NCBI GenBank assembly: GCA_016234365.1 | Contig: JACRER010000026.1 | Coordinates: 1-46,825, forward strand | Origin: Elusimicrobiota bacterium | Lineage (GTDB): Bacteria > Elusimicrobiota > Elusimicrobia > Elusimicrobiales > UBA9959 | Direction of reading: 5' to 3' | DNA: 46,825 nucleotides | Shown: one piece after another, positions 15,454 through 18,897 of the stretch | How positions within the stretch are numbered: position 1 is the stretch's first letter | Layout of the letters: each line of letters starts with the position of its first letter | Program-made: the position numbers and the translations under genes | The notes under the pieces: model-generated | The model's input: the letters and a program-made list of their open reading frames with translations, nothing else | What the model was told of the DNA's origin: nothing | Databases searched by the model: none

Positions 15454-15472
15454 ATTGCCCGCGCCGGCCTGA

Positions 15473-15507
15473 TATATGTCAAGTTATTTGCCATGCCGTG
15501 ACATATA
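15473..15507. promoter_or_regulatory. Inverted TGACATAT sites upstream of porin promoter
   Basis: TATATGTCA (15473-15481) and TGACATATA (15499-15507) form a 9-bp inverted repeat with a 17-bp spacer. A related TGCCATGC begins at 15489, exactly 10 bp before the second arm. The same TG(A/C)CATAT word is arrayed at 18,814-18,936, suggesting a shared regulator. Confidence 0.55.
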
Positions 15508-15530: not shown

Positions 15531-15559
15531 TTGACAGGCCGTAACGTTTTTGTAATAAT
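15531..15559 (+). promoter_or_regulatory. Porin promoter
   Basis: TTGACA (15531-15536), 17-bp spacer, AATAAT (15554-15559), or TAATAA one base earlier. Transcription would begin near 15,566. Confidence 0.75.
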
Positions 15560-15565
15560 TCTTTT

Positions 15566-15822
15566 GCTCTGTAGGGAGGCCTTCAAAGTCAAAAAAAGAA
15601 GGTCCGCCAACCCCGGGGTTAAAGGGGGGAAGCGGAGCGCCAATTTAAGGCGCTTCTCCTAAGGGACCCGCAAGGGAACCAGCAAGGCCGTAGGCCCCGT
15701 AAGGGGCAGGCCCTGACTGCAAAGCCGGAAGGCCGCGCAGGAAGAGTGTAGTACCGGACCCGAAAGGACACCGGAACTAAGCCCCGGAAACGGGCTTACG
15801 ACAAAGCAAGGAGGAGTACTGA
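15566..15822 (+). ncRNA. Long structured 5' leader RNA of the porin gene
   Basis: About 255 nt of non-coding leader before the porin. Many hairpins can be drawn by eye: AGCGCC-AATTTAA-GGCGCT (about 15,639-15,657), CCC-GCAA-GGG, CCCC-GTAA-GGGG, GCC-GGAA-GGC, CCGG...CCGG around CCCGAAAGG, and CCCG-GAAA-CGGG just before the Shine-Dalgarno sequence. Several are capped by GNRA-type tetraloops, typical of RNAs with tertiary docking. A segment CTGACTGCAAAGCCGG faintly recalls a c-di-GMP-I riboswitch, but the whole does not match a class I can name. It is probably a cis-regulatory RNA or the source of a stable sRNA. Confidence 0.6.
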
Positions 15823-17076
15823 ATGAAAAAAGTAATAGGTATACTTGCGCTGCTCGCGTTCACTGGCAACTTCGCCAGCGCCGAGCTGCTCAAGAACTTC
15901 AAAGCGAACGGGCAGGTTGAAGTGAACGCGTACAACACCAACAACGCGGACTTCAACAAGAAAGTGAACGACAAAAGCGGCAAGACCGATACCCGCGTTA
16001 TGATCAACGCCGGTTTCGACCTGAACGACGATGTTAGCGCCGTCGTATCGGCCGTGAAGTGCGACAGGCAGTACGGTACGGCGTCCCAGACGCCCGCCGG
16101 CGCCACCATCGACATCTTCACCTTCGAGCAGGCCTACCTGAACCTGAAGGGTGTCATTGGCCTCGATCATAAGCTCGGCCGCCAGTATTACGGCGAAGCC
16201 GGCGACATGGTCGTGTATTACGGCCCCGCGATGTGGCCCTACCCCAGCAAGATCGCGCTGCTCAACCCGGCGATTGACGGCTGGACCTCCACCTACAAGT
16301 ACGGCAACTGGGACTTCGGCGCCATAATCGCCAAGCAGAAACAGTCCGCCACCGTGGGCCAGGAAGGTAAGCAGGACATCAACCTGTCCGGCTTCAACGC
16401 CATGACCAAAGTGGCCGACGTCAACCTGAAGGGTTACGTCTACCAGAAGGTCGACAACAACACCAGCGCCGGCAATGCCGACTACCTGGACGTCGCCGGC
16501 ATAAAGGCCAAGTACGCCATCCCCATGGTGAAGAACCTGAACGTGGCCGGTGAGTACGCCATGAACATGGGCAAGATGACCAACGGCGGCCTGAAGCACA
16601 AAGGCTTCGCCTACAAAGCCAATGCCGACTACGGCATGGACCTGATGGGCAAGCTCGGCTTCGACGCGGAGTACTACTTCGCCACCGGTGACAACAACGC
16701 CACCGACAAGAGCGACAAGGCCTTCAAGTCCATCAACGGGGACTATCGCCCCGGCATCATGATGGGCGGCGGCTTCGTCACCGGCATCAACGGCACCAGC
16801 ACCGGCAACACCACCCTGAACGTGGGCGCCAACTGGACCTACGAGAAGCTGGAGAAGCTCAACATCGCCGCGAAGTACTACGACTTCTCGGCCGACAAGA
16901 AGGGCAATCTCGTGAAGACCCACATCGGCACCGAGACCGACGTGGTGGCGACCTGGACGCATTCCGACAACGTGAATGTGAAGGGTTACTACGCCATGTT
17001 CCAGAACGAGAAGAAGAACAAAGCGACCGACGACGCCGAGACCATGATGGGCGCGGCCGTCAACGTGAAGTTCTAA
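15823..17076 (+). CDS. Outer-membrane beta-barrel porin-like protein
   Basis: 417 residues with a signal peptide (about 1-20, ending FASA). The body alternates polar and hydrophobic residues and is rich in Gly, Asn, Lys and Tyr, as in a barrel of many short strands. It ends in phenylalanine (AAVNVKF), the usual barrel-insertion signal. A very strong Shine-Dalgarno sequence (AAGGAGGAG, 15808-15816), a structured leader and a strong terminator suggest high expression. Codon use is more uniform than in neighbours, also fitting an abundant protein. Substrate unknown; general diffusion porin is the simplest guess. Confidence 0.8.
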   Translation: MKKVIGILALLAFTGNFASAELLKNFKANGQVEVNAYNTNNADFNKKVNDKSGKTDTRVMINAGFDLNDDVSAVVSAVKCDRQYGTASQTPAGATIDIFTFEQAYLNLKGVIGLDHKLGRQYYGEAGDMVVYYGPAMWPYPSKIALLNPAIDGWTSTYKYGNWDFGAIIAKQKQSATVGQEGKQDINLSGFNAMTKVADVNLKGYVYQKVDNNTSAGNADYLDVAGIKAKYAIPMVKNLNVAGEYAMNMGKMTNGGLKHKGFAYKANADYGMDLMGKLGFDAEYYFATGDNNATDKSDKAFKSINGDYRPGIMMGGGFVTGINGTSTGNTTLNVGANWTYEKLEKLNIAAKYYDFSADKKGNLVKTHIGTETDVVATWTHSDNVNVKGYYAMFQNEKKNKATDDAETMMGAAVNVKF

Positions 17077-17139: not shown

Positions 17140-17171
17140 AAAAGGTAGCAGCTACCTTTTTTTGTTATAAT
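17140..17171 (+). promoter_or_regulatory. Inverted repeat and extended -10 of second barrel gene
   Basis: AAAAGGTAGC (17140-17149) and GCTACCTTTT (17151-17160) are perfect arms around one A. It could be a second small terminator, since a T-run follows, or an operator. Directly after comes TGTTATAAT (17163-17171), an extended -10, 8 nt before the ATG at 17180. Confidence 0.6.
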
Positions 17172-18850: not shown

Positions 18851-18897
18851 GGTTATTAACACATGTTGACATATGCCTGCCATATGATTGCCATATA

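Follow-up and report, generated by a model that had tools for sequence, protein, structure and literature searches.

The 5' untranslated region (UTR) of Escherichia coli ompA has a structured 5' end, and protection of the ompA type depends on structure rather than on sequence. This UTR is the precedent for a leader that stabilizes its mRNA (PMC7509114), and it shares with the leader RNA described here, from an uncultured Elusimicrobiota bacterium, a structured leader and a strong Shine-Dalgarno (SD) sequence before the gene for a major outer-membrane beta-barrel (PMC7509114). The Elusimicrobiota leader resembles translational riboswitches in having an anti-SD element with an alternative partner and no terminator, Hfq-dependent small RNA control by MicF and MicA in locating post-transcriptional control within the 5' region of a porin mRNA (PMC9111926), and CsrA-controlled leaders in its many GGA motifs and its hairpin-rich sequence overlapping the SD. 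Unlike the ompA 5' UTR, however, it is larger and composed of many helices, contains long-range pairings and invariant sequence blocks, and has no Rfam similarity; compared with an ompA-type 5'-terminal helix, its helix P1 starts at the predicted first base but competes with a second helix, P3x. Unlike translational riboswitches, it has no known aptamer or ligand, and its targets share a location in the cell rather than a metabolic pathway. Regulation of ompA goes through Hfq and MicA; the present element, by contrast with such small RNA control, is structured and lies in cis, and neither Hfq nor CsrA was found in ten genomes of its family. By analogy, the leader would work most like a translational cis-regulatory leader or an ompA stabilizer. 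We class it as a new family within a kind of RNA already known, the structured mRNA leaders; what is unusual is its proposed layout, in which the 5' end is coupled to the SD.

The window is the whole stretch of DNA analyzed, the 46,825-nt contig JACRER010000026.1 (assembly GCA_016234365.1); the promoter, the leader and the porin gene lie on its + strand. The leader occupies positions 15566–15822, 257 nt of non-coding sequence between a promoter and the porin ATG at 15823, exactly where a sequence-only reading had placed it. That reading had also described the promoter as good and the SD as very strong, and both descriptions hold. The promoter (15531–15559) comprises TTGACA (15531–15536), a 17-nt spacer and AATAAT (15554–15559) with TG before the -10 element, matching the consensus at 11 of 12 positions, and a TTGACA ... 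TTTTTGTAATAAT pattern is also found upstream of most homologous leaders. The SD is AGGAGGAG (15809–15816, extended by a U to 15817) and takes the form GGAGGAG in 43 of 49 leaders, a figure that counts leaders only, as the background gene set for comparison itself included leader-bearing genes. The conserved unit spans the entire 15566–15822 interval, beginning with GCUCUGU at 15566, the transcription start predicted from the promoter, and stopping at the SD. Farther upstream, TGATATATGTCAAG and TGACATATAGG motifs at 15470–15506 are likewise present before most homologous promoters, homologues carry TTGACATATGTCA palindromes and TGACATATAAGGCATATAATATAGATAT immediately upstream of -35, and TGACATAT occurs additionally at 18867 and 18899; judged by their sequence, the motifs upstream of -35 resemble either an UP element or an operator of the FNR/CRP type.

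The gene that follows (15823–17076) encodes a 417-residue outer-membrane beta-barrel. Its AlphaFold model (mean pLDDT 84) retrieved AlgE and Campylobacter MOMP as best Foldseek matches (E about 1e-14). The porin is probably highly expressed, since its codon adaptation, scored against S12, S7 and EF-G only and ranked over the window's ORFs, is second among about 42 and exceeds that of ribosomal proteins S12 and S7. Past a terminator-like site at 17140–17160, the porin is followed by another barrel gene (Alginate_exp, PF13372; 17180–18487), and in many relatives a weak second barrel match adjoins the porin.

The proposal of a large structured leader is borne out by folding, by homologues in 46 of 340 genomes and by strong covariation. 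The predicted folding energy is -107 kcal/mol, against -90.5 ± 5.1 kcal/mol in dinucleotide shuffles (z = -3.26; none of 200 shuffles as good). Six or more hairpins, several of them GNRA-capped, had been suggested; we find seven or eight local hairpins in the window leader, with GNRA loops on at least five (GCAA, GUAA, GGAA, GAAA and GAAA, as read from the sequence). Covariation among homologues, put forward in the sequence-only reading as a check, is extensive: in an alignment of 49 copies, 90.6% of cells are paired in the open structure defined below, and 31 of 52 pairs change on both sides, contributing 178 two-sided cells compared with 61.6 ± 7.6 after shuffling (reached in 0 of 500 shuffles), a margin that is large even though the alignment was fitted to the open structure and thereby favors it. 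When the partners were slid against each other, only 24–44 two-sided cells remained.

Covariation is strongest in P2, P2b, P6 and P7. The nearly invariant GCUCUGU (15566–15572), with few changes, all of them one-sided, is the 5' strand of P1, and GCGGAGC (15632–15638) is its 3' strand. Between them lie hairpins P2 (15578–15605), in which the five inner pairs all covary, and P2b (15611–15629; CCCC/GGGG), in which all four do. The GGAG at 15634–15637 doubles as the 5' strand of P3x (GGAG/CUUCUCC), an extension of hairpin P3 (GCGCC/GGCGC); P3 and P3x together span 15634–15659, with 99–100% of cells paired, and one homologue, L073, shows a G-C to A-U double change in P3x. The anti-SD element CUUCUCCU (15653–15660) has the SD or, via P3x, the GGAG as its partner. 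In the alignment, hairpin P4 (15663–15680) is optional and missing from many homologues. P5 (15686–15712) covaries around a conserved internal GUAG, with AGGG/CCCU replacing the outer GGCC/GGCC in L073 and L085. P6 (15713–15746), which has inner purine mismatches, displays many compensatory changes of the CG, UA and GC types, and P7 (15750–15778), variable or lost in some homologues, displays double changes in seven of nine pairs. P8 (15779–15797) ends in a GNRA loop, GAAA in the window and GCAA, GUAA or GGAA elsewhere. Finally, a predicted long-range helix, P9, joins CGUAGGCCC (15689–15697) to GGGCUUACG (15792–15800).

The description of this RNA as one of unknown class stands as well. The window leader has no match at the gathering threshold in Rfam 15, including the c-di-GMP-I riboswitch, and its weak matches fall far below thresholds; a scan of nine homologous loci, eight of them with leader homologues, likewise produced no match at threshold. 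At relaxed thresholds the leader itself gave no convincing match, and most of what appeared were sequences resembling terminators in the flanking DNA. Our literature search found no paper describing structured RNAs from Elusimicrobia; two large surveys of GC-rich intergenic regions mention neither the phylum nor porins in their main text.

Of 61 genomes searched by DNA similarity, 27 gave a match to the leader, among them that of the window. A first covariance model, built from 17 copies and run against 340 genomes, all Elusimicrobiota, identified 49 copies in 46 of them; because a second model, built from 30 diverse copies, returned the same 46 genomes and no additional ones, the family looks saturated within the phylum. 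All covariance-model matches fall within the window's own family, in 46 of its 59 searched genomes, and represent nine genera as counted by the tool; the members with names are Elusimicrobia bacteria GWC2_64_44 and GWA2_61_42. The copies are 158–349 nt long and share 49–98% pairwise identity (median 74%). Most genomes contain one and three (G003, G154 and G155) contain two; no second copy was found in the window's own genome. Given the covariation, the confinement of copies to one family, the barrel genes downstream and the lack of an Rfam match, the leader is a real, new, lineage-restricted family of cis-leader RNAs.

Several copies depart from the common architecture. Two short versions of 158 nt (L070 in G011 and L071 in G002) lack most of P5–P7, have the altered 5' end ACUUUGC and precede a small barrel gene; their sequences suggest a natural minimal or degenerate form. 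In L027 and L074 a small palindrome, GTCCGCCGGCGCA.TAGTGGCGGA, is inserted twice per leader, inside the P3 loop and before P8, and L028 has a related palindrome inside P8, a pattern that would fit a REP-like element sparing the conserved core. Another leader (L080 in G150) is lengthened by well over 100 nt inserted after the anti-SD element and before P5, with the flanking conserved elements intact. Two species (L005 and L009) have in common a P6 extension of about 45 nt, which might be an additional module.

Which genes follow the leader? A readable gene lies directly downstream of 48 of the 49 copies and in every case encodes an outer-membrane beta-barrel; in the remaining copy (L078), a similar gene start is visible whose frame is soon broken. 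These genes encode either the porin of about 420 residues or a smaller barrel of 183–234 residues in several divergent types, all of which, where scanned, match OMP_b-brl (PF13505), so that at least two unrelated barrel families are represented. In four genomes (G006, G019, G022 and G027) the leader is on a small barrel and a strong porin match is absent. Leader-free porins, in turn, occur in G012, G140 and G141 and as the second porin copy of G003, and a model scan of the DNA upstream of these porins with filters off gave nothing above 4 bits. The leader is thus dispensable for making the porin as such and tracks outer-membrane barrels as a class. The sequence-only reading had left a riboswitch, a protein-binding leader and a processed stable RNA side by side; the comparison of homologues narrows the function to a cis-acting leader of barrel genes that has an anti-SD element but lacks a terminator, and disfavors the processed RNA.

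A stable small RNA released from the transcript and acting in trans might be expected to be compact and structured and to have its own strong promoter, as is the case here. However, no intrinsic-terminator-like site was found on the + strand inside 15566–15822, conservation runs into the SD, and the leader never occurs without the start of a barrel gene immediately downstream; we consider such an RNA very improbable. The missing terminator was also the ground on which transcription attenuation was rejected. Control by a leader peptide or upstream ORF was rejected on the depletion of AUG in the leaders (40 against 140 expected; 0 of 300 shuffles) and on the finding of no conserved short ORF in the homologue set.

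A riboswitch for a metabolite or ion that acts through a translational expression platform would be expected to show what is seen here: a large fold of many helices, bases that are invariant although unpaired or at junctions, GNRA loops, an anti-SD element and alternative pairings. Yet the genes downstream encode general outer-membrane barrels from unrelated families that share no pathway, no regulon of enzymes or specific transporters accompanies them, a genome usually has a single copy, Rfam offers no similarity and the leader is confined to one family, and we regard this explanation as unlikely. The spread of the leader over several barrel families, rather than one substrate, would accord with the leader being bound by a protein, or by an RNA acting in trans, that regulates the synthesis of barrels, as in envelope-stress feedback for instance, and GGA motifs are enriched (9.6 per leader against 7.2 in mononucleotide shuffles). 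But Pfam models for CsrA (PF02599) and Hfq (PF17209) found neither protein in any of ten draft genomes of the window's family (94–100% estimated completeness), while positive controls were found; the two most familiar routes are thereby eliminated, no partner emerged as a candidate, and regulation of this kind appears quite unlikely.

The most invariant segments of the leader, GCUCUGU, GCGGAGCGCC, GGCGCUUCUCC, CGUAGGCC and UUACGAC, lie outside the covarying hairpins, and they can form two incompatible sets of helices: GGAG (15634–15637) can pair with the 5' end of the RNA in P1 or with CUUCUCC in P3x, and CUUCUCC with GGAG or with the SD. We propose the following model for a putative switch in translation and mRNA stability. 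In the open state, GGAG would be engaged by CUUCUCC in P3x, leaving both the SD and the 5' end accessible. The closed state would instead join GCUCUGU at the 5' end to GCGGAGC (P1), CUUCUCC to the SD (AGGAGGAG) and CGUAG(GCCC) to (GGGC)UUACG (P9), blocking translation and protecting the 5' end. The nascent RNA is predicted to adopt the open fold first, and the completed leader could then convert to the closed one; candidates for the signal that shifts the balance are the occupancy of the mRNA by ribosomes, a protein binding the RNA, a metabolite, or nothing more than the kinetics of folding. With somewhat less than an even chance in our estimate, and hence tentatively, we favor the reading that this lineage-restricted, cis-acting leader family controls the expression of major outer-membrane barrels as a two-state leader.

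Pairing in the 49 homologues is consistent with the closed helices, with 99.0% of cells paired in P1, 93.6% in the anti-SD helix and 98.4% in P9. In the aligned cells, P1, P9 and the anti-SD helix show one-sided changes only; because both strands are nearly invariant, covariation cannot prove the switching helices. Among the variants of P9, whose pairing was tabulated per sequence for 41 rows and read by eye from the sequences for the remainder, a G-U pair becomes G-C in L012 and A-U in L026, L089 and L081, and L072 has CGUCGGCC opposite GGCCGGCG, replacing A-U with C-G. P9 may amount to no more than a 4–5 bp pseudoknot in which UUAC pairs with the bulged GUAG of P5, an arrangement that would not have to exclude P8. 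L073 keeps P3x and has one P1 pair broken.

Partition functions gave, for the first ~100 nt of nascent RNA, about 0.01 for P1 and about 0.42 for P3x; for the full leader, means of 0.40 for P1 and 0.58 for the anti-SD helix; and for the full window leader, 0.94 and 0.95, respectively. For some homologues the model leaves P1 or the anti-SD helix almost unpopulated. The energy needed to open the SD is about 2 kcal/mol, with values of about 1–3 kcal/mol in 22 of the 23 leaders computed, and burial of a shortened SD in these 23 of 49 leaders showed no excess over shuffled upstream sequence; by the energy model, sequestration of the SD is not above chance. The case for a switch would lie in the conservation of rival partners, not in energy.

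It is conceivable that no switching occurs, and that the leader is a constitutive stabilizer of the mRNA and support for translation of a very highly expressed protein, its structured 5' end and strong SD protecting the message as in the ompA 5' UTR. The near-consensus promoter, the GGAGGAG of 43 of 49 leaders, the location of the predicted extreme 5' base inside P1, the high codon adaptation rank of the porin, the usual presence of one leader per genome on a major-looking barrel gene, and the peripheral hairpins that come and go among homologues would all be compatible with this explanation. A stabilizer, however, has no need for GCUCUGU, GCGGAGCGCC, GGCGCUUCUCC, CGUAGGCC and UUACGAC to be invariant across nine genera, and an invariant CUUCUCC complementary to the SD would be unexpected. 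By analogy to ompA, we regard a constitutive stabilizer as possible but rather doubtful.

Returning to the two-state leader, its most specific form is also a speculative one, which we would sooner expect to fail than to hold. It would constitute a new class in which a short GGAG is swapped between the 5' end of the transcript and the anti-SD element, so that a single event would expose or hide both the 5' end, governing mRNA stability, and the ribosome-binding site, governing translation, of a major outer-membrane protein in bacteria apparently without Hfq and CsrA.

For the bacterium itself, the leader is probably a built-in control element for making its main pore protein. Because it sits on unrelated barrel families across genomes, what it controls is probably outer-membrane load or the level of expression and not a substrate. 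A phylum that is largely uncultured thereby gains an RNA family with good support, and the leader suggests RNA-based control of a major outer-membrane protein where Hfq-dependent small RNAs and CsrA appear to be absent.
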